From NCBI GenBank assembly GCA_947453145.1, contig CANGFA010000010.1:1-64000 (forward strand): 64,000 nt of DNA, read 5' to 3'. Below, piece after piece: positions 34,664 to 50,725 of this stretch. This DNA is from Bacteroidota bacterium. Lineage in GTDB: Bacteria; Bacteroidota; Bacteroidia; Chitinophagales; Chitinophagaceae. The stretch's first letter is position 1, and every line of letters begins with the position of its first letter. Both the position numbers and the translations under genes were made by a program. Below the pieces are notes generated by a model. That model was not told the DNA's origin, searched no databases, and saw nothing but the letters and a program-made list of their open reading frames with translations.

Positions 34664-35266
34664 TTAAGGCTTATGCCTCTTTTCCAAAATATTAACAACA
34701 TCTCCTAATGTATAGCCTTTAGATTGCAATAAAATCATATAATGGAAAAGCAAATCAGCAGATTCATCTAAGAAAAGAGTTTCATTGTTGTCTTTTGCTT
34801 CAATCACCATTTCTACTGCTTCCTCTCCTACTTTTTGAGCTATTTTATTAATTCCTTTTGCAAATAAACTGGCAACATAGGAAGTATCGGGTGCAGCATT
34901 TTTTCTTTCTGCAATCACTTTTTCCAATGTAGCTAAAAAGGCAGTATTGGAACTTGCATTTTCCTGACCCCAACAAGTTCCTGTTCCATTATGACAAACT
35001 GGACCCGACGGATTAGCTTGTACTAATAAAGTATCGTTATCGCAGTCTACGGTCATGCTAACATAATGCAAGAAGTTACCACTCTCCTCTCCCTTGGTCC
35101 ACAATCTTGACTTAGACCTACTAAAAAAAGTTACTTTTTGTTGAGACAAGGTAGCGTCAATTGCTTCCTGATTCATAAATCCCATCATAAGTACATTTTT
35201 TGTATTGACATCCTGTACAATGGCGGGTACTAAACCATCTGCGTATTTTGAAAAATTGATATTCAT
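34664..35266 (-). CDS. hisI: bifunctional phosphoribosyl-AMP cyclohydrolase / phosphoribosyl-ATP pyrophosphatase
   Basis: The fused HisIE carries out steps 2 and 3 of histidine synthesis. The N-terminal HisI part (about 1-105) has M-G-F-M-N-Q-E-A, S-R-S-K-S-R-L-W-T-K-G-E-x-S-G and the metal site V-D-C-D-N-D-T-L with C-H-N-G-T-G-T-C. The C-terminal HisE part (about 110-200) has the G-E-E-A-V-E-M-V-I-E-A and D-E-S-A-D-L-L-F-H motifs. Last gene of the his-trp series, 73 bases after hisF; the TlpA-like gene that follows has its own promoter. Confidence 0.95.
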   Translation of the reverse strand: MNINFSKYADGLVPAIVQDVNTKNVLMMGFMNQEAIDATLSQQKVTFFSRSKSRLWTKGEESGNFLHYVSMTVDCDNDTLLVQANPSGPVCHNGTGTCWGQENASSNTAFLATLEKVIAERKNAAPDTSYVASLFAKGINKIAQKVGEEAVEMVIEAKDNNETLFLDESADLLFHYMILLQSKGYTLGDVVNILEKRHKP

Positions 35267-35339
35267 AATTAAAATTAAATAATGTTTGGGATCTGCAATT
35301 TATTTTTTGAATCGCTTTTAATCGGTATGAAATTTAAAA

Positions 35340-36098
35340 TTACAACCGTATAGAAACTCCTTTATCGTGTAAATACTTTTTTAAATCGGGTATGGCTAAT
35401 TCCTTATAATGAAAAATACTTGCTGCCAAAGCTGCATCTGCTTTACCTTGTGTAAATACATCATAAAAATGCTGTTCATTGCCCCCTCCCCCCGAAGCAA
35501 TAATGGGCACTGGTAATGTTTCGGCCAATTGTGCAGTAATATCTAATGCAAACCCTTGTTTAGTGCCATCGTGATTCATTGAAGTTAATAAAATTTCTCC
35601 CACGCCTAAGTCCACAGCTTCCCTAGCCCAGTCCATAACCAACTTATTCGTTTTAGTTCTGCCACCATTTAAGTATACATACCAATTGTTATCTTCCTCG
35701 CATTTTATATCAATGGCTAACACCACACATTGGCTACCAAAGTTTCTAGCGAATCTGTTAATAATAGTGGGGTCTAAAACAGCGGCGGTGTTTACGGAGA
35801 TTTTATCTGCTCCATTTTGTAGCAATACGGTTACATCTTCCTCTGTTTTAATGCCCCCTCCAACCGTGAAGGGAATATTAATTTTATGTGCAATTTTATT
35901 GACTAACTCACTTAAGGTTTTTCTTTTTTCCACGGTAGCCGTGATATCCAAAAAAACCAATTCATCAGCTCCTTGTTCTGCATAAAATGCACCTAGTTCT
36001 ATAGGATCACCTACATCCCTAATTTGCTCAAAGTTAATCCCCTTCACCGTGCGACCGTCTTTGATGTCTAAACAGGGTATAATTCTTTTGGTTAACAT
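35340..36098 (-). CDS. hisF: imidazole glycerol phosphate synthase cyclase subunit
   Basis: HisF is a TIM barrel that, with HisH, turns PRFAR and ammonia into IGP and AICAR. The start [16 protein letters not shown] has the first catalytic Asp. The second is in L-A-I-D-I-K-C, and I-A-S-G-G-G-G binds phosphate. Length (252 aa) is standard. It lies 50 bases after hisA. Confidence 0.95.
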
Positions 36099-36148
36099 TT
36101 TTTATTTATTAAAAAGCTTTGTTATTTACTAATGATAGTTGTCATTAA

Positions 36149-36874
36149 TTATTTTGTTTCTTGAAATTTGCTCAGCTCTTGCAAGGTAATTCTGTTTTCA
36201 TAAATCGCTTTCCCCACAATGGCTGCCGAACATCCTATTTCACGCAATGTTTTTAAATCCTGCAAATTACTTACACCCCCACTGGCAATTAATTGAAGTA
36301 CAGGAAACTTTGCAATTATTTTTTTATACAAATCAATAGAGGGACCTTGCAACTTTCCGTCCTTTTGAATATCGGTACAAAACATTTGCATCAACCCTTT
36401 ATCCAAATATGACTGCATAAAAGTATACACGTCAATATCTGTTTTTTCTAACCAGCCACCAATGGCAATTTTTTCTTCAAATACATCGGCACCTAGCATA
36501 AAAACGGCAGCTCCAAAACGTTCAATCCACTGTTCAAATACATTTCTATTTTTTACTGCTAAACTTCCAATAGTTGCATAAGCTGCCCCCAAATCCAATA
36601 CTGTTTTTAAAGTGCTTTCCGTTTTTATACCTCCGCCAAAATCTATTTGTAAATTAGTTTGATTTGCTATTTTATCCAGCACTTTCCAATTCACCACTTC
36701 CCCTGCCTTGGCGCCATCCAAGTCTACTAAATGCAAACGCATGAGTCCAATACCTTCAAATGCCTTAGCTACTTCCAATGGATCCTCGTTGTAAATTTTC
36801 TTTTGCGCATAGTCCCCTTCCGTTAAACGGACACATTTGCCTTCAATTAAATCTATCGCAGGTATAATTTGCAT
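36149..36874 (-). CDS. hisA: phosphoribosylformimino-5-aminoimidazole carboxamide ribotide isomerase
   Basis: HisA is a (beta/alpha)8 isomerase of the histidine pathway. I-I-P-A-I-D-L-I-E-G-K-C-V-R-L contains the catalytic Asp and the G-K-C-V-R-L-T signature. F-C-T-D-I-Q-K-D-G carries the second acidic residue, and I-A-S-G-G-V-S-N closes the phosphate site. A separate trpF exists, so there is no need for a dual HisA/TrpF (PriA) role. Two bases separate it from hisH. Confidence 0.95.
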   Translation of the reverse strand: MQIIPAIDLIEGKCVRLTEGDYAQKKIYNEDPLEVAKAFEGIGLMRLHLVDLDGAKAGEVVNWKVLDKIANQTNLQIDFGGGIKTESTLKTVLDLGAAYATIGSLAVKNRNVFEQWIERFGAAVFMLGADVFEEKIAIGGWLEKTDIDVYTFMQSYLDKGLMQMFCTDIQKDGKLQGPSIDLYKKIIAKFPVLQLIASGGVSNLQDLKTLREIGCSAAIVGKAIYENRITLQELSKFQETK

Positions 36875-36876
36875 TT

Positions 36877-37467
36877 TTATAAACTTAAAAAGTTTTGAAT
36901 AATCTGCTCACCCACTTTTGCAGACTTCTCTGGGTGAAACTGAACGCCATAAAAATTATCCTTATGTAAAGCACAACTATAAGGCTGTATATATTGGGCG
37001 GTACCAATCGTGTGGTCCCCTAATGCAGCATAGTAACCATGTACAAAATAAGCATAGCTTTCCTCAGGCACTCCTTTGAATAAATTAGACTTTAAATTTG
37101 AAATGGTATTCCATCCAATTTGAGGCACTTTTATAGTAGCATCGGTTGGCTTAAATAATTTCACTTGTTCTTCAAAAATATCCAAACATGTAGTATTGTT
37201 TTCTTCGGAATAGGCACACATCAATTGCATACCTAAACAAATACCAAACACAGGCTGTTTTAAATTTTTTACTACTTTATCCAATGCTCTTTCTTGTAAA
37301 TATTGCATAGCTGTACTCGCTTCACCCACACCCGGGAATATCACTTTGTCCGCTGCTTGAATGGTCTCTACATTGTCGGTCACCGTTGCTTCAACGCCTA
37401 ATCGAGCTAGCGCATATAGTACAGATTGAATATTACCAGCATTGTATTGTATGATTACGATATTCAT
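36877..37467 (-). CDS. hisH: imidazole glycerol phosphate synthase glutamine amidotransferase subunit
   Basis: A class-I glutaminase with the nucleophile Cys in F-G-I-C-L-G-M-Q and the His-Glu pair in V-Q-F-H-P-E-K-S. It supplies ammonia to HisF. First of the four his genes placed after trpA, 56 bases downstream of it. The 56-base gap shows no TAnnTTTG box and no hairpin terminator, so expression probably depends on the trp transcript. Confidence 0.94.
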   Translation of the reverse strand: MNIVIIQYNAGNIQSVLYALARLGVEATVTDNVETIQAADKVIFPGVGEASTAMQYLQERALDKVVKNLKQPVFGICLGMQLMCAYSEENNTTCLDIFEEQVKLFKPTDATIKVPQIGWNTISNLKSNLFKGVPEESYAYFVHGYYAALGDHTIGTAQYIQPYSCALHKDNFYGVQFHPEKSAKVGEQIIQNFLSL

Positions 37468-37523
37468 TATTTAAAGTTCATGATTTAATCTTATTAATTA
37501 GCGTCCTATTGTAATTAAAACAA

Positions 37524-38294
37524 TTAACTTAAAACGGCTTTTAAAAATTGAGTGGTCGTTTCATTTACATCCACCCCTTTTGAAAGTGCATTGATGTAGG
37601 CCGATCCAATAATGGCTCCATTGGCATAAGCACAAACCGCATTAAAGGTTTCCTTATCCTTTATACCAAATCCTACCAAAACTGAATTTTTTAATTGCAT
37701 AGCTTGTAATTTTTGCAGATACAAAGCTACTTTGGAAAAATCTTTATCTTTTCCGGTGGTCGCAGAAGAACTTACTGCATATAAGAACCCAGTACTTAAG
37801 CTATCTAATTTTCTTAATCTATCTTCTGGCGTTTCGGGAGTTACTAAAAACACAAAGTCCAATTCATTTTCTTGAACTGTCTTGCCGTATATATTTTCAT
37901 ATTCAAATAAAGGCAAATCGGGTAAAATTAATCCATCTACACCAACTGCTTTTGCTTTTTTACAAAATGCTTCAAAGCCATATTGCAAAATGGGATTCAT
38001 ATAGCCCATTAATATAACCGGAATATGAATAGTATTGCGCATAACAGCTAACTGCTCAAATAAGGTGTCAATGGTCATGCCATTAGCCAAAGCAACATTA
38101 CCACTGGATTGTATTACTTCCCCATCCGCTAAAGGATCGCTGTAGGGCATCCCTAATTCTATGATATTAGCCCGATTCGCTTGCAAACTTTCCATTACTT
38201 GTAATGTACTATTCAGCTGCGGAAAACCTGCAGTACAATAAACGTTTAACACCCGATTATTTTGTTTTTTAAATAATTCCGATAACCTTGACAT
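37524..38294 (-). CDS. trpA: tryptophan synthase alpha chain
   Basis: TrpA cleaves indole-3-glycerol phosphate and passes indole to TrpB. Catalytic Glu is in I-I-E-L-G-M-P-Y-S-D-P-L-A-D-G, with the second acid in G-L-I-L-P-D-L-P. S-S-x-x-T-T-G and G-F-G-I-K form the phosphate site. Length (256 aa) is normal. Last trp gene, followed by hisH. Confidence 0.95.
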   Translation of the reverse strand: MSRLSELFKKQNNRVLNVYCTAGFPQLNSTLQVMESLQANRANIIELGMPYSDPLADGEVIQSSGNVALANGMTIDTLFEQLAVMRNTIHIPVILMGYMNPILQYGFEAFCKKAKAVGVDGLILPDLPLFEYENIYGKTVQENELDFVFLVTPETPEDRLRKLDSLSTGFLYAVSSSATTGKDKDFSKVALYLQKLQAMQLKNSVLVGFGIKDKETFNAVCAYANGAIIGSAYINALSKGVDVNETTTQFLKAVLS

Positions 38295-38342
38295 AACTTT
38301 TTATTTAAATGATCCCTTTAATGATATTGATTGATGTAAACT

Positions 38343-39554
38343 TTATTTTTTCATATCCATCACTTGCATATAGGTAGCCAAATCCTTATCCCCTCTTCCG
38401 CTTAAACAAACCACCACTACATCCGTTGGTTTAAAATTCATTTTTGGCAAAATGGCAAAAGCATGTGCCGTTTCTAATGCTGGAATAATACCTTCTATTT
38501 CAGATAAATGAAAAGCCCATTCCAACGCTTCTTTATCGGTTGCACTAGTAAAAGTACCACGCTTACTTTCATATAAAAATGCATGTAATGGGCCAATGCC
38601 AGGATAATCCAAGCCAGCACTAATACTGTGTGGCTCTACCACTTGTCCATCGGCGGTTTGCATTAAGATACTTTTACTTCCATGTAATATACCAGGCTTC
38701 CCAAGTTGCGTAGTAGCTGCACTCATTCCTGAATGAACACCATAACCTGCAGCTTCTACTGCAACTAAATCTACGGTCTCCTCATTTAAGAAATGATAAA
38801 ATGCACCTGCCGCATTGGAACCACCTCCCACACAGGCAACTACATGCGTTGGCAATTCATTACCTGTTTTTTCTTTTAACTGCTTACGAATTTCATCACT
38901 AATCACACTTTGAAAACGCGCTACCATATCCGGATATGGGTGTGGACCTACCACACTTCCAATAATATAATGTGTTTCATTGGGCTCATTTATCCAAGCT
39001 CTAATGGCTTCATTGGTTGCGTCTTTTAAAGTTTTACTTCCACTAGTTGCAGGTACCACTGTTGCTCCTAACATTTTCATTCTAGCCACATTGGGCGCTT
39101 GACGCTCAATATCCTTTTCACCCATATATACCACACATTCCATCCCCTTTAAAGCACATACTGTTGCAGTGGCTACACCATGTTGGCCTGCACCCGTTTC
39201 GGCAATTATTTTTTTCTTACCCAAACGTTGTGCTAATAATATTTGACCAATGGTATTGTTAATTTTATGCGCACCCGTATGACATAAGTCCTCACGTTTT
39301 AAATAAATTTGTGTCCCAATTTCCTTACTTAATCTTTCGGCATAAAACAAGGGAGTAGGCCTGCCTACATAATCTTTTAATAAGGCATGAAACTCCTTTT
39401 GAAACTCAGGATCCTGCATGATTTGAATGTACTGCGCTTTTAATGTTTCTACATTGCTGTACAACATTTCTGGAATGTACGCCCCTCCAAAATCTCCATA
39501 GTAGCCTTCGGCACTTGGGTCTTGATAATTAATCGTTTTGTTAAATGAGTGCAT
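38343..39554 (-). CDS. trpB: tryptophan synthase beta chain
   Basis: The PLP enzyme joins indole and serine. The PLP lysine is in G-A-H-K-I-N-N, preceded by [26 protein letters not shown] and the C-terminal L-S-G-R-G-D-K-D are intact. It is the usual TrpB1 class (403 aa). Its first 14 bases overlap the end of trpF, which suggests coupled translation. Confidence 0.96.
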
Positions 39555-40200
39555 CTATAAAGGATTTAATTTTTTCTATATTTTTATTACCTGGTTCAAT
39601 CTCAAATTGACTATTAATATCCAAAGCAAACAAGTCACTACCTGCTTTAGTTTTCTTCATCACTTCTATACCGCCTATATCATTGGAACCAATGCCGCCA
39701 CTTAAAAAATAGGGCTTGCCAATGATATTTCCTTTTAATAATTCCCAATTAAAATGAGCCCCTGTTCCTCCATATAATTTACTATCCGTATCAAATAAAT
39801 AATAGTCGGCTACATTTTCAAATGGCACAATGTCAGGCATCTTATCTCCCACCCTAAATACTTTTATCAATTGTACATTATGTAAAGATGCATGCGATAA
39901 TTGTGATCTTAATTGTTCGTAATATTCCAAATCCTCATCCCCATGTAATTGAACCATGTCCAATCCAGCCTCTTTTACAATGTGTATTACATTTTCAACA
40001 GGCTCATTTACAAGCACTCCTACTTTTTTAGCATGAGAAGGGGTAAATGTTCTTATATCCTCTAATGACAAGGTATTTAAAACATATCTTTTAGAGGGTG
40101 CATAAAAAATAAAGCCAATACAATCCACCCCCATTGCTTCCAAAGCAATAGCTTGGTTTATAGTTGTCAACCCGCAAACTTTAATCTTTAATGTTCCCAT
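39541..40200 (-). CDS. trpF: phosphoribosylanthranilate isomerase
   Basis: TrpF starts K-V-C-G-L-T with the catalytic Cys. The general acid Asp lies in the later Y-Y-L-F-D-T-D-S region, with G-G-T-G-x-x-F-N-W and F-L-S-G-G-I following. Length (219 aa) is normal. It sits between trpC and trpB. Confidence 0.94.
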
Positions 40201-40243
40201 ACTTTAAATTTTATCACTCCTTATGAATGCTTCTTTATTGACA

Positions 40244-41029
40244 TTATTTAATTTGTTTACTAAACTCCTCAAACGCTTTAGCAGGATTTTCTTGTTTCAT
40301 AAAATACTCTCCCATTAAAAAACCATCAAAGCCCTCTTTTTTTAATAAGTTAAAAGTAGCTAAGTCATAAATTCCACTCTCTGCAATGCTTAATTTCCCT
40401 TTTGGTAACTGTTCTTTTAATTTTAAAGAATGTTCAATATTTACTTCAAAGGATTTTAAGCTTCTATTATTAATTCCGACAAAATCAACAGCATCACATA
40501 TATGACCTAATTCCGATTCATCATGTAATTCCAATAATACTTCCATCCCTAATTTTTGAGCAACACCGGATAATACTTTTGTTTGATCCGGTGTTAAACA
40601 AGAAGCAATTAATAAAATAACAGAAGCGCCATACGCTTTTGCTTCTATGATTTGAAATTCATCTATAATAAATTCCTTGCGCAATACTGGAATTGGATTT
40701 TGAATCGCTATGCTTAAGTCTTCCAAGCTTCCTCCAAAAAACGGACCGTCTGTTAAAACCGATATCCCAGCTGCACCAAATAATGAATAGGCTTGTGTCA
40801 CCTCCGCTACCTTAGCCACTCCATTGATGATCCCTTTAGAGGGTGATTGTCTTTTAAACTCAGCGATAATACCTGTTTTAGAAGTATCCAATAAATTTGC
40901 CTTTAAGGAATGACATTTTGTTTCAAATAAAGGCATAGCTTCTAATTGAGCGACGGATATTTGCCCTTTCCTATCAGCTACTTCGCCAAACTTAGTTGCT
41001 ATAATGGTTGCTAAAATATTGGTGCTCAT
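40244..41029 (-). CDS. trpC: indole-3-glycerol phosphate synthase
   Basis: A TIM barrel with the catalytic Lys in I-A-E-F-K-R-Q-S-P-S-K-G, a second Lys in V-L-R-K-E-F-I-I-D, and V-G-I-N-N-R and I-A-E-S-G-I near the end. The ATG at 41029 is chosen: it overlaps the trpD stop by one base (TAATG), the classic coupled arrangement, while the longer frame would begin at a TTG inside trpD. Confidence 0.95.
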   Translation of the reverse strand: MSTNILATIIATKFGEVADRKGQISVAQLEAMPLFETKCHSLKANLLDTSKTGIIAEFKRQSPSKGIINGVAKVAEVTQAYSLFGAAGISVLTDGPFFGGSLEDLSIAIQNPIPVLRKEFIIDEFQIIEAKAYGASVILLIASCLTPDQTKVLSGVAQKLGMEVLLELHDESELGHICDAVDFVGINNRSLKSFEVNIEHSLKLKEQLPKGKLSIAESGIYDLATFNLLKKEGFDGFLMGEYFMKQENPAKAFEEFSKQIK

Positions 41030-42021
41030 TATTGCAGACTTATTAATTTTTGTAAACAATTATTGGCCGCACCCGATTCCAAAGAGGTCACCGCTGCTTG
41101 ATAAGCAGCTTCGTAATTTTCATATTTCCCGGTAAGGTTTAAAGCCATTGCTGCATTGGCTAATACCACTGCATTTTGTGACCAAGTGCCTTTTCCTTGA
41201 ATTATATTTTTAAATATATTTGTCGCTTCTTCCACGGTAGCACCACCACTTAATTCCTCGGCAAATACGCGTCTCTTTCCAAGTTCATATGGCGATTTAG
41301 TAAACTCTCCTTTATTGGTAACAATTTTAGTATCCGTAGTTAAAGAAATTTCATCATAGCCGTCTAAACTATTTATTAAAGTAAACTCTTTGTCTAAACT
41401 TTGTAAAACATAATTATAAATACGCGCCATTTCTAAATTATATACCCCAATTAATTGATACTTAGGTTGCGCTGGATTCACAATAGGTCCTAGCATATTA
41501 AAAAAGGTGCGTACTCCCATATTTCGGCGGATAGGTCCCACTGTTTTTAATGCTGGATGAAATAAAGGGGCATGTAAAAAACAAATGCCCGCTTCCTTTA
41601 CTTCCTTAGCTAATTGTGACTGGTCATTTTTAAAAGTATACCCCAATTGCTCCATTACATTGGAGGATCCACTCACACTGGAAGCGCCATAATTACCATG
41701 CTTCACCACGGGTTGTCCAGCTCCAGCTACAATAAAACAGGCCAGGGTTGATATATTAAAAGTGTCTTTACCGTCTCCGCCTGTTCCTACTATATCCATG
41801 GCATTATCCAAGCCTAGATCTACTTTCACAGCAAGTGATAAAAGGGCATCTCTAAAACCCATTAATTCTTCAATGGTTATGCTGCGCATTAAATAAACGG
41901 TCACGAAAGAAGTAACCTCGTGCTCATTGTATGCGCCCTGTGAAATTTGAACCAACACTTCCTTAGCCTGTTCTCTTGACAAGGTTTTATGTTCAAATAA
42001 ATATTGTAATAATTTTTTCAT
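41029..42021 (-). CDS. trpD: anthranilate phosphoribosyltransferase
   Basis: It joins PRPP and anthranilate. The PRPP loop is D-I-V-G-T-G-G-D-G-K-D-T-F-N-I-S-T, followed by K-H-G-N-Y-G-A-S-S-V-S-G-S-S and R-R-N-M-G-V-R-T-F-F-N-M-L-G-P, all typical. Length (330 aa) is normal. PRPP is also the substrate of HisG in the same gene cluster. Confidence 0.95.
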   Translation of the reverse strand: MKKLLQYLFEHKTLSREQAKEVLVQISQGAYNEHEVTSFVTVYLMRSITIEELMGFRDALLSLAVKVDLGLDNAMDIVGTGGDGKDTFNISTLACFIVAGAGQPVVKHGNYGASSVSGSSNVMEQLGYTFKNDQSQLAKEVKEAGICFLHAPLFHPALKTVGPIRRNMGVRTFFNMLGPIVNPAQPKYQLIGVYNLEMARIYNYVLQSLDKEFTLINSLDGYDEISLTTDTKIVTNKGEFTKSPYELGKRRVFAEELSGGATVEEATNIFKNIIQGKGTWSQNAVVLANAAMALNLTGKYENYEAAYQAAVTSLESGAANNCLQKLISLQ

Positions 42022-42071
42022 CTTTTCATTTAAATTTAATTTTCAATTTCATTTTTTAAGCGCTTCGAAAA

Positions 42072-42641
42072 TTATTTTTTCAACCAATTCGCAATAATTT
42101 TAGCCCCTTCAGGCGTTAACACACTTTCCGGATGATACTGCACTCCCTTTACATCAAAGGTTTTATGCTCTAATGACATAATATAGCCTTCTTCGTCTTT
42201 TGATGTAATGGTTAGTTCAGCTGGCAAATCCTTTTCATTCACCACCCAGCTGTGATAACGTCCAACCTGAAAGGTATTTGGCAAGCCTTCAAATAAAGTA
42301 GAAGACGAAGTTAAATGAACTGGCGTTGCTATACCATGGTACACTTTGCTCAAATTACTTAAGCTACCTCCAAAAGATTCCGCAATGGCTTGCTGTCCTA
42401 AGCAAACTCCAAAAATAGATTTACTTGCAGCGTATTCTTGAATTAAAGGCAATAACAATCCAGATTCTGAAGGAATACCTGGCCCTGGTGATAATAATAT
42501 TTTATCATAGCCTTTAACAGCTTCTAAAGGAATTTCATCGTTACGAAATACTTCCACCTTGGCATCAGTTGCAATTTCTCTTATTAACTGTACCAAGTTG
42601 TAGGTGAAAGAATCGTAATTATCAAAAACTAATATTTTCAT
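42072..42641 (-). CDS. trpG: anthranilate synthase component II (glutamine amidotransferase)
   Basis: A class-I glutaminase with F-D-N-Y-D-S-F-T-Y-N-L at the start, the nucleophile Cys in F-G-V-C-L-G-Q-Q, and V-Q-Y-H-P-E-S-V-L-T at the end. It feeds ammonia to TrpE. In many bacteria one TrpG also serves PabB in folate synthesis; no separate pabA is in the window, so a dual role is possible. Confidence 0.93.
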   Translation of the reverse strand: MKILVFDNYDSFTYNLVQLIREIATDAKVEVFRNDEIPLEAVKGYDKILLSPGPGIPSESGLLLPLIQEYAASKSIFGVCLGQQAIAESFGGSLSNLSKVYHGIATPVHLTSSSTLFEGLPNTFQVGRYHSWVVNEKDLPAELTITSKDEEGYIMSLEHKTFDVKGVQYHPESVLTPEGAKIIANWLKK

Positions 42642-42712
42642 TGTCGCTTATTTATCGCTTTTATCTTTTCTTAATATTTTATTAAAAGAATTCAGTTTAG
42701 TTTACTATTTAT

Positions 42713-44125
42713 TTAATCGTGAATTTTTTCAGCTAACACCATTGCTGTTTTTAAAGCATTTAATTTATTATTCACCTCCTGTAATTCATTTTCTGGAACA
42801 CTCGCTGCCACCACACCTGCGCCTGCTTGATAGGTAAGCGTGTTTTGTTGACTTAAAAAAGTACGAATCATTATAGCCTGATTACAAGTGCCATTAAATC
42901 CAACGAATCCAATACAGCCACCATAATAAGATCGTTTGGTGGGTTCAATCGCATCTATTAATTGCATAGCTTTAAATTTAGGTGCACCACTTAAAGTGCC
43001 CGCAGGGAAAGTTTTTGCAATTAAATGAAAAGGATTGTCTCCTACTGCCACCTTACCTTCTACTTCACTTACCAAATGAATTACATGACTATAATAATGT
43101 ACTTGTCTGTATTGTTTAACACGAACTTCGGTGCATACCCTACTTAGATCGTTTCTTGCTAAGTCCACTAGCATCACATGCTCGGCATTTTCTTTAGGAT
43201 CGTCTAATAATTTTTGAGTCATATTGGCATCTACTTCCGCATCCCCTGTTCTTTTAAAAGTTCCTGCTATAGGATGAACCACCGCTTTGCCATTATTGAT
43301 GATAATTTGTGCTTCCGGAGAAGATCCCATTAATTTATAATCTCCATAATCAAAAAAGAATAAATAAGGCGAAGGGTTAATGTTTCTTAAAGTACGATAC
43401 ACATTAAACTCGTCCCCTTGGAATGATTGTTGAAAGCGTCTGCTTAATACAATTTGGAATACATCTCCACGCATACAATGCTTAATTCCTTTTTGTACCG
43501 TTTCTCGATATTGCTCATCCGTTAAATTAGAAGATTCCCCACCTAATAGAGTAAATGGATATTGAGGTACATCTTTGCTTTTTATAAAAGAAAGTAAGGC
43601 TTCGTATTCAGAAGGAATACCCGCTAACTTATTTTCACAAATAAATATTTCATCCTTAAAATGATTGAATGCAATTACGTATTGATATAAACGATAGCGC
43701 ATTAATGGAATAATTGGTGCACCTTCTTTAAATTGAATGGTATCAAAAAATGGAATGGCATCATACGCAGTATAACCATACAATCCTTGTGCAAAAGCTG
43801 CTTCTTTTACTTCCTGTCCCTTCATTTCATATTGTTGCATATAAGCCCAAATACGATCTGGCGCGGCATGTACATTTTGAATGGTTTCTTTCTCTGGATC
43901 CTCATTGGGATATTTAAATTCAATTTCGTTTAAGGAAGAAATTTCAATCCCTCCAATGGCGTTAACGCCAATAAAAGAATAACTGTTTTCAGAAGCATGG
44001 GAATCGGTACTTTCTAATAAAATAGTATCGCGGAATCTATCTCTTAATCTAAGATAAATACCTACCGGTGTAAAAGTGTCTGCCAGCATCCGGGTGACTG
44101 TAGTTGTAATTTGCTTCTTTTGCAT
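42713..44125 (-). CDS. trpE: anthranilate synthase component I
   Basis: A chorismate-utilising enzyme: G-D-V-F-Q-I-V-L-S-R-R, P-S-P-Y-L-F-F, H-P-I-A-G-T-F-K-R, D-L-A-R-N-D-L-S and the C-terminal F-P-A-G-T-L-S-G-A-P-K motifs are present. P-S-P-Y with an N-terminal L-L-E-S feedback motif (I-L-L-E-S-T-D) indicates a tryptophan-inhibited TrpE. First structural gene of the trp block, behind a leader-peptide attenuator. Confidence 0.95.
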   Translation of the reverse strand: MQKKQITTTVTRMLADTFTPVGIYLRLRDRFRDTILLESTDSHASENSYSFIGVNAIGGIEISSLNEIEFKYPNEDPEKETIQNVHAAPDRIWAYMQQYEMKGQEVKEAAFAQGLYGYTAYDAIPFFDTIQFKEGAPIIPLMRYRLYQYVIAFNHFKDEIFICENKLAGIPSEYEALLSFIKSKDVPQYPFTLLGGESSNLTDEQYRETVQKGIKHCMRGDVFQIVLSRRFQQSFQGDEFNVYRTLRNINPSPYLFFFDYGDYKLMGSSPEAQIIINNGKAVVHPIAGTFKRTGDAEVDANMTQKLLDDPKENAEHVMLVDLARNDLSRVCTEVRVKQYRQVHYYSHVIHLVSEVEGKVAVGDNPFHLIAKTFPAGTLSGAPKFKAMQLIDAIEPTKRSYYGGCIGFVGFNGTCNQAIMIRTFLSQQNTLTYQAGAGVVAASVPENELQEVNNKLNALKTAMVLAEKIHD

Positions 44126-44172
44126 ATGTTATTCTAACTTCTTTTCTTGTTTTAAAAATTGCTTGGTCTTTG

Positions 44173-44210
44173 CTAAAAAAAATAAACCCCGACAATGTAT
44201 GTCGGGGTTT
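44173..44210 (-). terminator. trp attenuator terminator hairpin
   Basis: On the minus strand AAACCCCGAC (44210-44201), a seven-base loop, then GTCGGGGTTT (44193-44184) form a 10-bp stem. TATTTTTTTT follows, ending about 48 bases before the trpE ATG. It lies between the trpL stop and trpE. Confidence 0.88.
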
Positions 44211-44240
44211 ATGTATATTTTGACAATAATAGTTATGTCA

Positions 44241-44297
44241 TTACAATACCCCAACGGAGTTTGTATGCCACCACCACATATTGTTTAATTTAGTCAT
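44241..44297 (-). CDS. trpL: trp operon leader peptide, 18 aa, three consecutive Trp codons
   Basis: The short frame reads M-T-K-L-N-N-M-W-W-W-H-T-N-S-V-G-V-L and stops at TAA (44243-44241). The TGG-TGG-TGG run is at 44276-44268. An in-frame ATG at 44306 would add M-Y-K. Just before the Trp codons, ACAATA (44284-44279) can pair with TATTGT (44248-44243), which overlaps the stop codon. The adjoining GTTGGGG (44255-44249) can pair with CCCCGAC of the terminator. A ribosome stalled at Trp would cover the first segment and free the second to form the antiterminator; one that finishes would cover the second segment and allow termination. Confidence 0.9.
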   Translation of the reverse strand: MTKLNNMWWWHTNSVGVL

Positions 44298-44320
44298 TTT
44301 ATACATTTTCTTATCAGATG

Positions 44321-44352
44321 CAAATTTAGCGAATTGGTCATTCTGTGCCAAA
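44321..44352 (-). promoter_or_regulatory. trp promoter
   Basis: On the minus strand TTTG (44352-44349), 20 bases, TAAATTTG (44328-44321): an exact match to the Bacteroidota -33/-7 consensus. Transcription should begin about 5-10 bases before the first possible trpL ATG (44306). Confidence 0.75.
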
Positions 44353-44384
44353 AAAATCTCACAAATCCCATAAAGTTCCCTCAA

Positions 44385-44408
44385 GTACCTTATCCTACAT
44401 TAAGGTAC
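44385..44408 (-). repeat. 8-bp inverted repeat directly after hisB
   Basis: GTACCTTA (44385-44392) and TAAGGTAC (44401-44408) are perfectly complementary around an 8-base loop, one base after the hisB stop codon. No T-run follows, so it is not a clear intrinsic terminator; it may stabilise the 3' end of the hisB message or slow RNA polymerase before the trp promoter. Confidence 0.5.
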
Positions 44409-44409
44409 C

Positions 44410-45540
44410 CTATAAAACCCCCTTGGTACTGGGCAAAGCGTCACTATTGGGATTGCGTTTTACTGCCATTTTAATGGATTTGGCAAAGGCCTTAAATATG
44501 GCTTCTATTTTATGATGCTCATTGTCCCCTTTACAGCTAATATTTAAATTAGCTTTAGCAGCATCACTGAAGGATTTAAAAAAGTGAAAAAACATTTCGG
44601 TGGGCATTTCGCCAATTTTTTCACGTTTAAATTCCGCATCCCAAACAATCCAGTTTCTACCTCCAAAATCAATTAATACTTTGGCTTCGGCCTCGTCCAT
44701 AGGAAGCGCAAAGCCATAACGTTCCATGCCTCTTTTATCCGATAAGCCTAAAGCAAAAGCTTCTCCTAAAGCAATTCCAACATCCTCAATGGTATGGTGT
44801 TCATCAATATGTAAATCCCCATCGCATTTTATATTTAAATCTAATGCACCGTGACGCGCAATTTGTTCCAACATATGATCAAAAAATCCTAAGCCCGTTT
44901 CTATTTTCGCATCTCCTTTCCCATCTAAATTTAATTCAACACTAATCTTAGTTTCCTTGGTGTTTCGCACATGTGAAACCTTTCTTAACCCCAATTTTAA
45001 GAAGCTATAAATTTCGGACCAAGTATGCGTTTCTAAAGCAATATAAGGTCTTAGTTCCAACTCCTGTTCTGCAGTTAAATTATGCAAAGGCGATTTTAAA
45101 TAGATGGCTTTACAACCTATGTTTTTTGCTAAAGCAATATCACTCCATCTGTCTCCAATGACAAAGGAACTTGCAATGTCAAATTGATCCTTATTTAATA
45201 AATGGGTAAGCATCCCCGTACCCGGCTTACGCGTTGGTTTATTGTCGGCAGCAAAAGTATCGTCAATAAAAATTTCATCAAACACAAAACCCTCGCCAGC
45301 AAGCGTTCGTAGCATTAAATCCTGATAGGGCTCAAATTGCTCCATTGGATAACTTGACGTACCCAATCCGTCCTGATTGGTTACCATTACTTTATGAAAA
45401 CCAAAATCATTAGCTATTTTTCCCAAATAACTAATGGCGCCTGGTATAAAATTGGTTTTTGCAATATTGTCAATTTGAAAATCCGTTTTAGGTTCTTCTA
45501 AAATAACACCATCCCTGTCTATAAATAAAATAGGTTTCAT
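44410..45540 (-). CDS. hisB: bifunctional histidinol-phosphatase / imidazoleglycerol-phosphate dehydratase
   Basis: The N-terminal HAD phosphatase (about 1-165) starts F-I-D-R-D-G-V-I and has V-T-N-Q-D-G-L-G and G-D-R-W-S-D-I motifs. The C-terminal dehydratase (about 185-376) has G-L-G-F-F-D-H-M-L-E-Q-I, D-x-H-I-D-E-H-H-T-I-E-D and E-H-H-K-I-E-A-I-F-K-A metal-binding His clusters. It catalyses steps 6 and 8. ATG 45540 begins three bases after the cytochrome c stop, so translation is likely coupled to that unrelated gene. Followed by the trp promoter region. Confidence 0.95.
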   Translation of the reverse strand: MKPILFIDRDGVILEEPKTDFQIDNIAKTNFIPGAISYLGKIANDFGFHKVMVTNQDGLGTSSYPMEQFEPYQDLMLRTLAGEGFVFDEIFIDDTFAADNKPTRKPGTGMLTHLLNKDQFDIASSFVIGDRWSDIALAKNIGCKAIYLKSPLHNLTAEQELELRPYIALETHTWSEIYSFLKLGLRKVSHVRNTKETKISVELNLDGKGDAKIETGLGFFDHMLEQIARHGALDLNIKCDGDLHIDEHHTIEDVGIALGEAFALGLSDKRGMERYGFALPMDEAEAKVLIDFGGRNWIVWDAEFKREKIGEMPTEMFFHFFKSFSDAAKANLNISCKGDNEHHKIEAIFKAFAKSIKMAVKRNPNSDALPSTKGVL

Positions 45541-45543
45541 CAA

Positions 45544-45942
45544 TTATTTTTTATTTTTTGCTGCAATCACTTGAGCTTCAGTTACAACAGTTGCTTTATT
45601 ACTCCAACTAGTTCTTATGTAACTTAAAACATTTGCAATATCGGCATCTTTAAAATCGGGATTAGCAGTCATGGCATTGCTATAGTACATGCCATCTAAT
45701 GCAATTTTTTCACTGTACCCTCCTTTGATAATGCGCACTAATCTAGCCAGGTCATTGCCCACCACATTGCTGGAGCCATCCAAAGGGGCATTCATATTGG
45801 GCACCCCGCCGCCATCGGCCTGATGGCAAACCAAGCATCGGGTTTCATATATCTTTTTCCCTTTTGCTAAATCCTGGGCAGTAACATTTACGGCAAAACC
45901 CAAGATTAAAAAAGATCCTATTAAAATTTTTATGTAATTCAT
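45544..45942 (-). CDS. exported c-type cytochrome, 132 aa
   Basis: A signal peptide (residues 1-22, ...V-N-V-T-A-Q) precedes one class-I cytochrome c domain. The haem motif is C-L-V-C-H, the following G-G-G-V-P-N-M-N-A-P-L is typical of the cytochrome c family found with sugar dehydrogenases, and a Met ligand is probably in M-Y-Y-S-N-A-M-T-A. It lies 38 bases after the dehydrogenase gene and directly before hisB. It likely accepts electrons from the dehydrogenase in the periplasm. Its place inside the his series has no obvious metabolic reason. Confidence 0.85.
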   Translation of the reverse strand: MNYIKILIGSFLILGFAVNVTAQDLAKGKKIYETRCLVCHQADGGGVPNMNAPLDGSSNVVGNDLARLVRIIKGGYSEKIALDGMYYSNAMTANPDFKDADIANVLSYIRTSWSNKATVVTEAQVIAAKNKK

Positions 45943-45980
45943 GCCTATTCTTTTATTTTTTACGGTACCTATTTTAAAAT

Positions 45981-47237
45981 TTATTTTGAATAACTGATTT
46001 TGAAAATAGATCCTTTGTTGTCATCACTCACATACAATGATCCATCAGGACCTTGTGCTAAACCACAGGGTCTTGCTTTTGCATTACGAGGATTTTTTAC
46101 CTTTTCATCCCCTGTTAAACCAGAAAATCCATTCGCGAAAATTTCCCATTCACCATTGGGTTTTCCATCTTTAAATGGTACAAAAGCAACAAAGTAACCT
46201 TCCTGAGGAAGTGGCGCTCTGTTCCATGAACCATGAAAAGCAATAAAAGCTCCATTCTTATATTTTTCAGGAAATTGATTACCCGTATAAAATAGCAAAG
46301 CATTAGGCGCCATATGCGCTGGGAAAAACACAGTAGGATTGATTGCGTTTTCACCACCTTCTTTTTTGCCATCTCCGCCATATTCAGGAGACAACATTTT
46401 TTTCTTTTGATACGGATCAAAATAAACATAAGGCCATCCTGCATTATCCCCCTCATGTAATTCATACATAGTTTCAGCAGGCAATTCTGCATTTTGCGCA
46501 TCGGTATATAAGGTTGGATAAAAACTATTTAACTGGTCACGACCATGTTGCATTACAAATAAGGAGTTGGTTTGTTTATTCCAATCCAATCCCACCACAT
46601 TTCGTAGTCCTGTTGCATATCTTTTACCATCACCATAAACTTGATTTTCTTTTATGCCATCAAATTTCCAAATGCCACCCGCTGAATCTAAAATCGGGCA
46701 AGGCATCATTCCTTTGGAACCCGGCATTCTATCTTTTTCTTGACAGGCGTTGGAATAAGCACCAATATTTACGTAAATATTCCCTTGGCCATCTAATGTT
46801 ATAGACTTTGAAGCATGTTGATTTTTAGCTAGCAACCCTTTTACAATGGTCTTTGGTTTTGCGGTATCAATCACTTCGTCCTTTTCATTTAATTGATATA
46901 AGTAAATATCATTATCGGAAGTTGCATACAAGGACTTTCCCTTTACAAAAATACCCGTACCACCATATTTTCCCCATCCTGTAATGTTATCGGCTACGCC
47001 ATCCTTATTTTTATCTTCCAAACGAATAATGCTTTTACCTGCTTTATTTGGGTACATTAATTTGGCAAATAAAACGCCATTGGGGGTAATGGCAATATGT
47101 CTTGCACTTCCAATGGTATCGGCAAATAAAGTAGCTTTAAAACCTGCTGGCAATTTTAAGCCGGCATTGTTTTGTGCATTGGACGCAAGTGTTATTGCAG
47201 CAAATACAAATACTAAAAAGATTTTTACATTTTTCAT
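45981..47237 (-). CDS. exported PQQ-type sugar/sorbosone dehydrogenase-like beta-propeller, 418 aa
   Basis: A signal peptide (residues 1-21, ...A-S-N-A-Q) precedes a beta-propeller of the glucose/sorbosone dehydrogenase (GSDH) family, with L-P-A-G-F-K-A-T-L-F-A, A-R-H-I-A-I-T-P-N-G, G-L-R-N-V-V-G-L and W-N-R-A-P-L-P-Q-E-G-Y. Its partner cytochrome c is the next gene. True enzymes use PQQ to oxidise aldoses; PQQ synthesis genes are not in this window, so activity is not assured. It follows hisC by 95 bases and interrupts the usual hisC-hisB neighbourhood. Confidence 0.8.
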   Translation of the reverse strand: MKNVKIFLVFVFAAITLASNAQNNAGLKLPAGFKATLFADTIGSARHIAITPNGVLFAKLMYPNKAGKSIIRLEDKNKDGVADNITGWGKYGGTGIFVKGKSLYATSDNDIYLYQLNEKDEVIDTAKPKTIVKGLLAKNQHASKSITLDGQGNIYVNIGAYSNACQEKDRMPGSKGMMPCPILDSAGGIWKFDGIKENQVYGDGKRYATGLRNVVGLDWNKQTNSLFVMQHGRDQLNSFYPTLYTDAQNAELPAETMYELHEGDNAGWPYVYFDPYQKKKMLSPEYGGDGKKEGGENAINPTVFFPAHMAPNALLFYTGNQFPEKYKNGAFIAFHGSWNRAPLPQEGYFVAFVPFKDGKPNGEWEIFANGFSGLTGDEKVKNPRNAKARPCGLAQGPDGSLYVSDDNKGSIFKISYSK

Positions 47238-47304
47238 ACGACTATTTGTGTTTTTATTTTTTGTGAAACTATTTTATTTTCGGGTTTTTACATATTTATT
47301 TTTA

Positions 47305-47332
47305 TGGGCGGTTTTGTTTTTATTGACGCCCA
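47305..47332. repeat. weak hairpin after hisC
   Basis: TGGGCG (47305-47310) and CGCCCA (47327-47332) can pair over 6 bp around a 16-base A/T-rich loop, immediately after the hisC stop. There is no T-run directly behind it on the minus strand, so it may not stop transcription into the dehydrogenase gene. Confidence 0.35.
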
Positions 47333-48400
47333 CTAGGATTGAAATGTTTTCTCAATCCACTCCACCATTGCGTCAACTAGCTCCGTATTTTCTTGCTCAT
47401 TGCCAACTGTTATACGCACGGTATCCTCGCAATTAGGTAGGCTTGAACGGTCTCTAACAATAATGCCCTTTGCGCACAAGAAACGATACAATTCAGTTGC
47501 CTTAGGAATTTTCACTAATATGAAATTTGTATCTGAAGGGTATACATTTTGAACATGTGGCATAGACGCAATTACTTCGGAAAGTGCTATGCGCATTTCT
47601 ACCAAATGTTGTATCATATCATTTACCTGACCCACTTCCTCTAAAGCTTTTAATACTAATTCCTGCGCTACCATACTTATATTATAGGGCGCTTTTACTT
47701 TATTCAAATAACCCACAATGGACTCACTCGCAAAACACATGCCAACTCTTAAACCCGCGAGCCCCCAAGCTTTACTCAATGTTTGTAACACCACCAGGTT
47801 GGGATAATCCTCCAAGGATTGTACAAATGATTTTTGCTTAGAAAAATTAATATACGCTTCGTCTACAACAACCAATCCATTAAAATGGTTTAGTATAGTT
47901 TCAATATCAATGCGGTCTAACGAATTACCTGTAGGATTATTGGGAGAACAAATCCAAATAATTTTAGTGTTTTCATTCACCAACTGCTCGATATGTGCCA
48001 CATTTAATTGAAAGTCGGGCAATAAAGGTGCAGATTGAATCCCAATATTATTGATGTTTGCATTTACCTCATACATAGGATAGGTTGGAGGGCAAATAAT
48101 AATATTGTCTTTCCCTGGTTCACAAAATGCGCGAAATAACAAGTCAATAATTTCATCGCTACCGTTACCTAAAAATATTTGAGTGGCAGTTACTTTTTTG
48201 ATAAAAGCCAATTTTTCTTTTATCTCCATTTGATAAGGATCCGGATATCGGTTGTACCATTTTGTTAACGGTGATCCTAAACTGTTTTCATTTGCATCTA
48301 ATAAAATACGCGCTTCCCCACTATATTCATCTTTTGCAGAAGAATAGGGTTTTAATTTTTCAATATTTGGCCTAACTACTTTTTTAATATCAAATTGCAT
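47333..48400 (-). CDS. hisC: histidinol-phosphate aminotransferase
   Basis: A fold-type I PLP aminotransferase with the PLP Lys in T-L-S-K-A-W-G-L-A-G-L-R. C-S-P-N-N-P-T-G-N, V-V-D-E-A-Y-I-N-F and L-G-N-G-S-D-E-I-I-D are typical of HisC. Length (355 aa) is normal. Three bases separate it from hisD, so it belongs firmly to the hisGDC unit. Confidence 0.94.
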   Translation of the reverse strand: MQFDIKKVVRPNIEKLKPYSSAKDEYSGEARILLDANENSLGSPLTKWYNRYPDPYQMEIKEKLAFIKKVTATQIFLGNGSDEIIDLLFRAFCEPGKDNIIICPPTYPMYEVNANINNIGIQSAPLLPDFQLNVAHIEQLVNENTKIIWICSPNNPTGNSLDRIDIETILNHFNGLVVVDEAYINFSKQKSFVQSLEDYPNLVVLQTLSKAWGLAGLRVGMCFASESIVGYLNKVKAPYNISMVAQELVLKALEEVGQVNDMIQHLVEMRIALSEVIASMPHVQNVYPSDTNFILVKIPKATELYRFLCAKGIIVRDRSSLPNCEDTVRITVGNEQENTELVDAMVEWIEKTFQS

Positions 48401-48403
48401 ATT

Positions 48404-49702
48404 CTACATTTTTGATTCTATGTCATTTAATCTTACTGCTACCGCATAACCATGCGCATCCAAACTTTCGGCACTAGCCATTTCCATTACCGCATTCCCA
48501 ATATTCACTAGTCCACGCTCCGTTAAATGCTGAAAGGTAATTTTTTTTACAAAACTATCAACGCTCACACCACTGTAAGCATTGGCATACCCATTGGTTG
48601 GTAAAGTATGATTGGTTCCGCTTGCATAATCCCCCACCGATTCAGGTGAATAATTGCCAATAAATACCGAACCTGCATTGATTACTTTTTCGGCAATGAT
48701 TTCGGCATTTTCAACTGAAATAATTAAATGCTCAGGAGCATACTCGTTTATTAATTCTAATGCTTCCAAACTATTTTCAATCACAATGGCTTTTGAGTTT
48801 TCCAATGCTTTAGCCGCAATTTCTTTTCTTGACAATTTTGCTAACTGTATTTCTAATTCGGTTTGTACATTGGCCAGCACACTTTCATTACTAGCTACTA
48901 ATAATACTTGGCTATCTACACCATGCTCGGCTTGAGATAATAAATCAGCAGCAACAAAGGATGGAATAGCCGCATCGTCGGCCCATACACATACCTCACT
49001 AGGACCAGCTGGCATGTCAATGGCTACGCCAGTTTGCTGCACTAACTGTTTAGCAGCAGTTACATATTGATTACCTGGTCCAAAAATTTTGTTGACTTTA
49101 GGAATTGTTGCTGTACCATAAGCCATGGCTGCAATGGCTTGAACGCCTCCTACGGTAAAAATATGCGTTACACCCACCAAAGAGGCAGCATAAATTATAG
49201 CTGGATGAATTTCGCCCTTATCATTACTAGGAGGTGTACACAAAATAATATTTTTACAACCTGCAATTTTTGCGGGAATACCCAACATAAGAACGGTTGA
49301 AAATAAAGGAGCGGTTCCACCTGGAATATAAATACCAACCGTTTCAATACCAATTGATTTTCTCCAACACCAAACTCCGGGCATGGTTTCGATACGGTCC
49401 ATTTTATGTAACTGAGGAAGATGAAACTTTTCAATATTACCCTTGGCTAATTGTATTGCCGATTTAAGGGAACTAGATAAAGCTGCTTCCGCATTGGCTT
49501 TACTACTTTCATTTAAAGCAATACTTTTTAATTGTACTTGATCAAATTCCTTTGTGTATTGCAATAAAGCCTCGTCCCCATTTTCACGCACTTCATTAAT
49601 AATTGCTTGAACCTTAGGCAAAAGGGTACTTGCATCAAAACTAGGCCTGGCTAGTAATGCGCTCCAATCTTTTTTGTTAGGGTTAATAAATACCTGAATC
49701 AT
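48404..49702 (-). CDS. hisD: histidinol dehydrogenase
   Basis: The zinc enzyme performs the final two oxidations of histidine synthesis. I-Y-I-P-G-G-T-A-P-L-F-S, G-P-G-N-Q-Y-V-T-A-A-K, D-M-P-A-G-P-S-E-V and S-Q-A-E-H-G-V-D-S-Q are canonical, and the catalytic E-H pair is in N-E-Y-A-P-E-H-L. Its ATG overlaps the hisG stop by one base (TAATG), so the genes are translationally coupled. Confidence 0.95.
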   Translation of the reverse strand: MIQVFINPNKKDWSALLARPSFDASTLLPKVQAIINEVRENGDEALLQYTKEFDQVQLKSIALNESSKANAEAALSSSLKSAIQLAKGNIEKFHLPQLHKMDRIETMPGVWCWRKSIGIETVGIYIPGGTAPLFSTVLMLGIPAKIAGCKNIILCTPPSNDKGEIHPAIIYAASLVGVTHIFTVGGVQAIAAMAYGTATIPKVNKIFGPGNQYVTAAKQLVQQTGVAIDMPAGPSEVCVWADDAAIPSFVAADLLSQAEHGVDSQVLLVASNESVLANVQTELEIQLAKLSRKEIAAKALENSKAIVIENSLEALELINEYAPEHLIISVENAEIIAEKVINAGSVFIGNYSPESVGDYASGTNHTLPTNGYANAYSGVSVDSFVKKITFQHLTERGLVNIGNAVMEMASAESLDAHGYAVAVRLNDIESKM

Positions 49703-50556
49703 TATAAAATCATTTTTTCAATTGGGATTACTAAAATACCTTCTGCACCTGCACTTTTTAATTGCTCTATGCTATCCCAAAAATCACTTTCAGCAATCAC
49801 ACTATGTACACTGCTCCATCCGGGTGATGCCAAAGGTAAAACCGTTGGACTTTTCATTCCAGGCAATAAAGCAATAATTTTTTCTAATTGATCATTAGGT
49901 GCATTTAATAAAACATATTTATTTTTCTTAGCTTTTTTTACCGATTCCATTCGAAACAATAAACGATCTAAAATTTGCTGTTGCTCGCTTGAAAAGTTTT
50001 TGTGCTTAATTAAAACTGCTTGTGATTTTAAAATAGTTTCCGCTTCCACCAATCCATTCATAAATAAGGTAGACCCGCTGCTTACTAAATCACAAACCAC
50101 ATCCGCCAATCCAATGCCAGGGGCAATTTCAACACTACCGCTAATTTCATGAATTTCAGCAACCACCTTATTTTCGGTTAAATACTTTTGAACCAACACG
50201 GGGTAACTGGTTGCAATTTTTTTACCAGCTAAAAAAGCAGGTCCGGTAAAGGTTTCATTTTTTCGCACTGCAAAACTAAGTCGACATTTCCCAAAACCCA
50301 ATTCATAGGCCACCTCTACTTTTTTTGCTTTCTCATACACTACATTTTCTCCTACAAAACCAATATCTGCGACACCATCTTCTACATACTGAGGGATATC
50401 ATCATCTCTTAAAAAGAAAAGCTCAATAGGAAAATTGGTTGCCTCTGCCTTTAATTTGTTTACTCCATTACCTATATCAATACCACATTCCTTTAACAAA
50501 CGCATGGAATCCTCATTTAAACGGCCTGATTTTTGAATGGCTAATTTTAATCGCAT
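49702..50556 (-). CDS. hisG: ATP phosphoribosyltransferase, long form
   Basis: First enzyme of histidine synthesis, joining ATP and PRPP. K-S-G-R-L at the start, R-D-D-D-I-P-Q-Y-V, A-D-I-G-F-V-G and the PRPP site V-C-D-L-V-S-S-G-S-T-L are present. At 284 residues it includes the C-terminal regulatory domain (E-G-I-L-V-I-P-I-E-K-M) of the long HisG form, so no HisZ is needed and feedback inhibition by histidine is expected. It is preceded by the hisL attenuator. Confidence 0.95.
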   Translation of the reverse strand: MRLKLAIQKSGRLNEDSMRLLKECGIDIGNGVNKLKAEATNFPIELFFLRDDDIPQYVEDGVADIGFVGENVVYEKAKKVEVAYELGFGKCRLSFAVRKNETFTGPAFLAGKKIATSYPVLVQKYLTENKVVAEIHEISGSVEIAPGIGLADVVCDLVSSGSTLFMNGLVEAETILKSQAVLIKHKNFSSEQQQILDRLLFRMESVKKAKKNKYVLLNAPNDQLEKIIALLPGMKSPTVLPLASPGWSSVHSVIAESDFWDSIEQLKSAGAEGILVIPIEKMIL

Positions 50557-50575
50557 ACTTGTTTATTATAAATTA

Positions 50576-50603
50576 AAAGGGCTTACTGCGAAGTAAGCCC
50601 TTT
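50576..50603 (-). terminator. his attenuator terminator hairpin
   Basis: On the minus strand AAAGGGCTTACT (50603-50592), tetraloop TCGC, AGTAAGCCCTTT (50587-50576): a perfect 12-bp stem followed by TAATTTATAATAAAC. It lies 19 bases before the hisG ATG. The T-run is short, so termination may be partial. Confidence 0.8.
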
Positions 50604-50638
50604 GGTTAAATATAGTTATACACCTACACACCCATAGC

Positions 50639-50686
50639 TTACCCTTTGGATAGCAAATGATGATGTATGTGGTTGTTTAATTTCAT
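50639..50686 (-). CDS. hisL: his operon leader peptide, 15 aa, with His-Ile-His-His-His
   Basis: The frame reads M-K-L-N-N-H-I-H-H-H-L-L-S-K-G and ends at TAA (50641-50639). Four of fifteen residues are His, coded by CAC and CAT-CAT-CAT (50671-50657). GTAAGC (50642-50637), overlapping the stop codon, can pair with GCTTAC in the first arm of the downstream terminator, giving an antiterminator. I did not find a convincing upstream segment to sequester it. A ribosome stalled on His codons would leave the pairing free; one at the stop would hide it. Confidence 0.88.
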   Translation of the reverse strand: MKLNNHIHHHLLSKG

Positions 50687-50690
50687 GGTT

Positions 50691-50725
50691 CAAATTTACG
50701 TTCCTTTTATAAAATACCCAACAAA
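50691..50725 (-). promoter_or_regulatory. his promoter
   Basis: On the minus strand TTG (50721-50719, part of a TTTTTTGTTG stretch), 20 bases, TAAATTTG (50698-50691): exact consensus. The -7 box ends four bases before the hisL ATG, so the leader peptide would be translated from a leaderless transcript. Confidence 0.72.

Follow-up and report, generated by a model that had tools for sequence, protein, structure and literature searches.

The window analysed here is a 64,000-nucleotide stretch of a Bacteroidota bacterium of the family Chitinophagaceae (contig CANGFA010000010.1 of assembly GCA_947453145.1, which comprises 2.13 Mb in 57 contigs and is 95% complete). It holds a cluster, spanning 34664-50721, in which a complete tryptophan (trp) operon lies within the histidine (his) operon. 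The subject of this text is the leader of the nested trp genes, in which a His codon follows three Trp codons and which probably serves as an attenuator responsive to both amino acids. The genes occupy the minus strand in the order hisG-D-C-[two unrelated genes]-hisB-trpE-G-D-C-F-B-A-hisH-A-F-IE (Table 1). NCBIfam profiles match all eight his genes and all seven trp genes clearly, at the positions and on the strand given by an earlier, sequence-only reading of this DNA, and the his-trp-his order proposed there is borne out. In addition, a dehydrogenase-like gene and a cytochrome c gene separate hisC from hisB. TrpE has a single match in the whole genome at E 1e-3, and a genome search with PF00977 (His_biosynth) returns four matches, the full-length ones being only hisA and hisF of the cluster.

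Table 1. Features of the his-trp-his cluster, in window positions
Feature	Position	Strand	Evidence or remark
his promoter motif TTG-N20-TAAATTTG	50691..50721	-	motif search; predicted
his leader open reading frame (ORF) MKLNNHIHHHLLSKG	50639..50686	-	sequence
his attenuator terminator, 12-pair stem	50576..50603	-	terminator scan
hisG	49702..50556	-	TIGR00070, 2.8e-55
hisD	48404..49702	-	TIGR00069
hisC	47333..48400	-	TIGR01141
glucose/sorbosone-dehydrogenase-like gene, between hisC and hisB	45981..47237	-	PF07995
cytochrome c gene, between hisC and hisB	45544..45942	-	PF00034
hisB, bifunctional	44410..45543	-	NF003937
trp promoter motif TTTG-N20-TAAATTTG	44321..44352	-	motif search; predicted
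trp leader ORF MTKLNNMWWWHTNSVGVL	44241..44297	-	sequence
control codons TGG TGG TGG CAT (Trp-Trp-Trp-His)	44265..44276	-	His codon at 44265-44267
antiterminator strand CGTTGGGGTATTGTAA, inside trp leader ORF	44241..44256	-	duplex of -16.6 kcal/mol with 5' side of terminator
trp attenuator terminator, 13-pair stem and T run	44182..44212	-	terminator scan
trpE	42713..44125	-	TIGR00564, 1.1e-120
trpG	42072..42641	-	profile match
trpD	41029..42021	-	TIGR01245
trpC	40244..41059	-	profile match
trpF	39541..40200	-	profile match
trpB	38343..39554	-	TIGR00263
trpA	37524..38294	-	TIGR00262
trpA-hisH gap, 56 bp	37468..37523	-	contains neither terminator nor spaced TAnnTTTG promoter motif
hisH	36877..37467	-	TIGR01855
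hisA	36149..36874	-	TIGR00007
hisF	35340..36098	-	TIGR00735
hisIE	34664..35266	-	NF002747

Two leaders punctuate the cluster, one before hisG and one between hisB and trpE. Both are preceded by TTG-N20-TAAATTTG, which we take to match the Bacteroidota promoter consensus. Searching for TTG-N17-22-TAnnTTTG recovers these two motifs (44352-44321 and 50721-50691) and three others, within hisG, hisD and hisB. The sequence-only reading had likewise given the trp genes a promoter and leader of their own. The top two minus-strand terminators in a scan of 33400-51000 lie at 44212-44182, 5' of trpE, and at 50603-50576, 5' of hisG. That scan finds no terminator in the trpA-hisH gap, and the motif search finds no spaced TAnnTTTG motif there, in agreement with the earlier claim that the gap lacks a promoter box and an intrinsic terminator. 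A single weak sigma-70-type match (9/12) spans the junction of the gap with hisH (37475-37446); such matches occur at chance frequency (62 against 68.7 expected), and TAnnTTTG taken alone is likewise no commoner than chance.

The leader before hisG carries a run of His codons. Such His-run leaders stand before hisG at 25 of the 26 loci examined, three further loci having too little upstream sequence. Read from the nearest start, none of these 25 leader peptides contains a Trp codon, as expected since no trp gene depends on the his leader alone.

The trp leader has the makeup of a ribosome-mediated attenuator. A short ORF with tandem control codons lies between the promoter motif and trpE, and an intrinsic terminator follows it before trpE. 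Its RNA folds much better than shuffled sequences (z -5.8); in the predicted fold the control codons fall in a 1:2 helix, apart from the terminator. The antiterminator strand CGTTGGGGTATTGTAA begins 11 nt past the first base of the His codon and is complementary to the 5' side of the terminator, and computation predicts that the two structures exclude each other and that a stalled ribosome would leave the strand free. This geometry recurs across the family: of 59 scored loci, 49 have a strand that starts 10-15 nt past the first base of the codon next to the Trp run (median 13), and 46 have a pairing stronger than that of 95% of shuffles. The 12-mer of control codons, TGGTGGTGGCAY, is not rare by itself, with four places in the genome against two for the reversed control. 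An Rfam scan of the window returns one tRNA and no leader family.

Distribution of the gene order

A comparison of gene order in related Chitinophagaceae shows the arrangement, taken as unusual in the sequence-only reading, to be the common one in the family. A trpA search of 117 genomes of the family, the source genome included, gave matches at E 1e-3 in 101, of which 87 exceeded the cut-off, and 86 trpA loci were taken besides the window. At 62 of these, hisH lies within 5 kb downstream of trpA on the same strand. Below, loci with his genes downstream of trpA are called linked. At 27, hisB also lies upstream of trpE (hisB-trp-hisH), a figure that counts only loci with hisB inside the fetched stretch, others often being cut by its end. 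All fifteen his and trp genes are present at 19.

Two candidate views of the gene order are rejected. It is not peculiar to the source genome, given the 62 linked loci, and it is not unreported, being in print for two species. Del Duca et al. 2021 (PMC8305728) describe trp genes that interrupt the his operon of Thermoflavifilum thermophilum and of Filimonas lacunae, and propose that the two gene sets may form one operon. Those clusters resemble the one in the window, where the trp genes likewise lie between hisB and hisH on the same strand: trp genes sit inside a his cluster with short gaps, and the authors suggest a single transcript. The gene order is thus correct but already known. The passages of that paper on the cluster name two species and contain no leader or attenuator analysis of it, whereas here the order is seen family-wide and in other Bacteroidota families and is joined to a leader with Trp and His codons. 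Outside the family, the order hisGDC-B-trp-hisHAF is found in Pontibacter pamirensis (L169) and at L180 and L181 of family f36. Furthermore, his genes lie within 5 kb after trpA in Algoriphagus marincola (L143), in Carboxylicivirga (L130) and in 31 of 88 genomes of a family, f16, that we infer to be Cyclobacteriaceae.

The sequence-only reading also proposed that hisHAF-IE are expressed largely from the trp promoter, or else require read-through from both promoters. The anatomy fits co-transcription of the trp genes with hisHAF-IE, because the gap contains neither terminator nor spaced motif and the order is conserved. The alternative is that hisHAF-IE have a promoter of their own inside trpA or the gap, which would make the trp block an ordinary self-contained operon and a permanent neighbour. 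A TAnnTTTG match within trpA (37722-37729) and the chance-level sigma-70-type match at the gap end offer candidate sites, and the trp block does persist alone, with tlpA (a TlpA-like gene) directly after trpA in 16 of the 24 family loci that have no downstream hisH. Such independence is nonetheless very improbable. No TTG-spaced motif and no terminator lie between trpA and hisH, the distance between the tblastn ends of the two genes is 41 bp or less in 39 of the 62 linked family loci, and the association described next would be left unexplained.

The residue after the Trp run

A leader containing a run of Trp codons is widespread ahead of the trp genes, at 67 of 69 loci with trpE in the source family, 77 of 80 named loci from Bacteroidota (the top 80 among 592 confirmed) and 76 of 80 f16 genomes. 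In some families (f33 and f56; L188, L198, L200, L207) trpB is the first trp gene, and a leader with two or three Trp codons stands before it and not before trpE.

The residue following the Trp run was compared between linked and unlinked loci in three strata, after 28 of 207 loci without trpE were dropped. The counts for the source family cover 68 of 87 loci, the window among them. Of the rest, 18 lacked trpE within the sequence fetched and one, L034, yielded no leader under the search criteria; the leader of L024, beyond the search distance, was entered by hand. For f16, 80 of the 88 genomes were counted, of which 76 have a leader, and linkage was read by eye from coordinates. A locus entered the stratum of other families only if his genes were seen or if 3 kb or more was visible past trpA; this stratum includes L132, L143 and L154, named Cyclobacteriaceae, and the linked f36 genome L306 (WWWH) falls outside it. 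The named loci L100-L113, mostly of the source family and truncated or duplicate, were omitted from the counts and from the tree described below. L132 and G320 (L283) are apparently one genome, which counts in two strata of the stratified test.

His stands right after the Trp run in 48 of 51 linked against 7 of 17 unlinked loci of the source family, in 23 of 30 against 23 of 46 in f16, and in 5 of 5 against 10 of 61 in other families. A stratified Cochran-Mantel-Haenszel test gives p 2.6e-8 with an odds ratio of 7.4. Where His is absent, the position holds L, Q, R, N, F, P and others. His directly ahead of the Trp run is confined to linked loci, with 13 of 77 against 0 of 100 unlinked. His elsewhere in the leader shows no significant association with linkage (Fisher p 0.19), and neither does the presence of WWW (Fisher p 0.11). 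The trp leader of Carboxylicivirga L130 (9800-10000), which has hisH-A-F-IE downstream of trpA, reads WHWHH, with His and Trp codons interleaved.

Shared ancestry was addressed with a FastTree phylogeny of TrpE comprising 177 tips, from which L095, a very long branch, was omitted; f16 genomes with 1-kb stretches only are in the counts and not in the tree. The tree requires no fewer than 24 changes of linkage and no fewer than 33 of the His codon. It offers 15 independent pairs on supported branches, of which on average 8.2 associate the His codon with linkage and 0.9 run the other way (median p 0.02, range 0.001-0.5). A Pagel-type likelihood test favours a His codon dependent on linkage over independent evolution (-148.1 against -163.8; p 1.4e-7), with a loss rate of the codon of 3.2 in unlinked and 0.16 in linked lineages, a difference of about 20-fold. 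None of 100 null simulations lacking the dependence reaches the observed value (largest 6.1 against 31.5). The result persists in subsets: the source family alone (p 1e-4), f16 (8e-3), and loci in neither family (7e-3, with only four linked loci). This correlated evolution is what would be expected had the linked genes caused the second control codon to be retained, although a correlation is not proof of cause.

The leading rival holds that the attenuator responds to Trp only. The post-Trp His would then be kept for RNA structure or by history, the linkage signal would be residual ancestry, and hisHAF-IE would follow the Trp supply with basal read-through. The CAU codon does lie within the predicted 1:2 helix, His is frequent in unlinked loci, and T, N and G at later leader positions, along with K before the Trp run, also correlate with linkage, more weakly. 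The signal of His at +1 nevertheless far exceeds those of the other positions tested and holds in tree tests of separate subsets. Among 60 residue-position combinations with at least 12 rows each, it is the strongest by Fisher test (3e-18, the next being 8e-11), and in tree tests of the top 12 combinations it reaches p 1.4e-7, followed by K at -2 with 6.5e-4. Codon usage speaks in the same direction. Linked loci use CAT 55 times and CAC 13 times, and because both occur, it is the amino acid and not one base that seems to be kept; CAA and CAG occupy the position in 16 of 100 unlinked but only 3 of 77 linked loci. A purely Trp-responsive leader is possible but unlikely.

Several observations weigh against a bivalent reading. 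The sequence WWWH is common in unlinked operons too, in the numbers given above and most of all in f16, and the codon therefore has other reasons to exist or decays slowly. Linked loci have exceptions: three of 51 in the source family, all with Gln (L064, L081, L090), and seven of 30 in f16, with Y, R, L, N, I, Q and the leader of G306, which reads WWWHWK and was scored as non-His under the strict rule. The source family alone yields only two independent pairs at full support. The weaker signals at other leader residues show that the test is partly inflated by shared ancestry, and an RNA constraint is possible, since the His codon falls within the 1:2 pause helix of the predicted fold. In f16, finally, the his genes mostly lie 1-3 kb past trpA, and co-transcription there is unsure. 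As a simple marker of linkage WWWH is weakened, with 23 of 46 unlinked f16 leaders having His. Since His is present in half of these leaders, linkage explains the retention of the codon better than its presence. In genus g19 of the source family (L064, L090), hisH still follows trpA, no hisA or hisF is visible beyond hisH within the sequence fetched, and Gln (CAA) replaces His in the leader.

Two proposed attenuators in series

The preferred reading, to which we give a probability of about two in three, is that the trp leader is a bivalent Trp and His attenuator, the second of two in series, which would ensure that His starvation does not leave hisHAF-IE blocked by the nested trp terminator. 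It would tie the gene order, leaders, terminators, complementarity and correlated evolution observed directly to co-transcription, stalling at the His codon and a physiological response, which we infer from them. Both attenuators would be ribosome-mediated. The first, before hisG, would sense charged His-tRNA. The second, between hisB and trpE, with its three Trp codons and one His codon ahead of trpEGDCFBA and hisHAF-IE on a putative single transcript, would control both sets of genes. A ribosome stalled at any of the Trp codons or at the His codon would let the antiterminator strand pair with the 5' side of the terminator, and transcription would continue. According to PMC4833913, a ribosome that has reached the stop codon covers as many as 12 nt beyond it. 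Given this figure, a ribosome halted at the His codon should leave most of the antiterminator strand free, while one or two codons later it would cover the core.

The bivalent design would answer a conflict in the wiring. Polymerases from either promoter would have to cross the trp terminator before reaching hisHAF-IE. With a terminator governed by Trp only, His starvation in the presence of ample Trp would leave hisHAF-IE shut while hisGDC-B were open, and a His codon in the trp leader would resolve this conflict. The predicted logic is that the proximal his genes obey His, whereas the trp genes and the distal his genes obey Trp or His. The purely Trp-dependent response of hisHAF-IE suggested by the sequence-only reading is thus probably incomplete, as the leader has a His codon after WWW that co-evolves with his linkage; hisHAF-IE probably respond to Trp or His. 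The balance of evidence tips towards a His codon that evolved to solve this conflict, the inner sensor having gained the amino acid of the outer operon, and that originated or persisted in several lineages of Bacteroidota and is lost over time where the genes have come apart.

Such a history would show how an attenuator may have its sensor codons rewritten in step with changes in gene order; the linked and unlinked loci offer a natural series in which operon rearrangement can be followed together with its regulatory input. It would also predict cross-regulation of Trp and His synthesis, two pathways that consume phosphoribosyl pyrophosphate (PRPP), in a large group of Bacteroidota.

Multivalent leaders are known from the ilvGMEDA and thr operons, whose control codons specify more than one of the operon's amino-acid products. 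The trp leader described here resembles them in that one leader carries control codons for several operon products. In those operons the amino acids share a pathway; Trp and His, in contrast, come from separate pathways that share PRPP.

The E. coli trp attenuator also combines a leader ORF containing Trp codons with alternative RNA helices. In its Trp-Trp-Arg leader, attenuation is also prevented when the ribosome stalls at Arg, the codon that follows the Trp pair (PMC1183508). Unlike in E. coli, the post-Trp codon here is His, and its retention tracks the downstream his genes. A further parallel is the aromatic supraoperon of Bacillus subtilis, in which, by the account in PMC1173090, the trp operon is inserted between aroH and hisHb. 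There too a trp operon sits inside a second amino-acid operon, some of whose genes follow it. It differs from the window locus in that hisHb is an aminotransferase gene and the regulator is the protein TRAP, not a leader peptide (PMC4027176). For Bacteroides thetaiotaomicron, the part of PMC1173090 at hand places a putative attenuator before a pheA-hisHb-tyrA cluster and not before trp or his. The open-licence literature searched, as far as its text was accessible, yielded no report of a Trp/His bivalent leader or of a trp attenuator in Bacteroidota. What is new is probably the regulatory reading as a bivalent Trp/His, ribosome-mediated attenuator, the gene order being already known.

Neighbouring genes

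Directly past the hisB stop and 5' of the trp promoter motif lies an inverted repeat seen by eye, GTACCTTA...TAAGGTAC (44375-44415), which has no T run. On the other side of the cluster, the next gene after hisIE on the same strand encodes a DUF4369/TlpA-like thioredoxin (33519-34601) and is possibly part of the operon. This tlpA gene recurs after hisIE at many loci of the family, and where it adjoins trpA the locus looks as if hisHAF-IE had been excised. As for the dehydrogenase-like and cytochrome c genes (45544-47237), the former lies 5' of hisB in 12 of the 27 hisB-trp-hisH loci of the family, which suggests an old insertion into the his operon.

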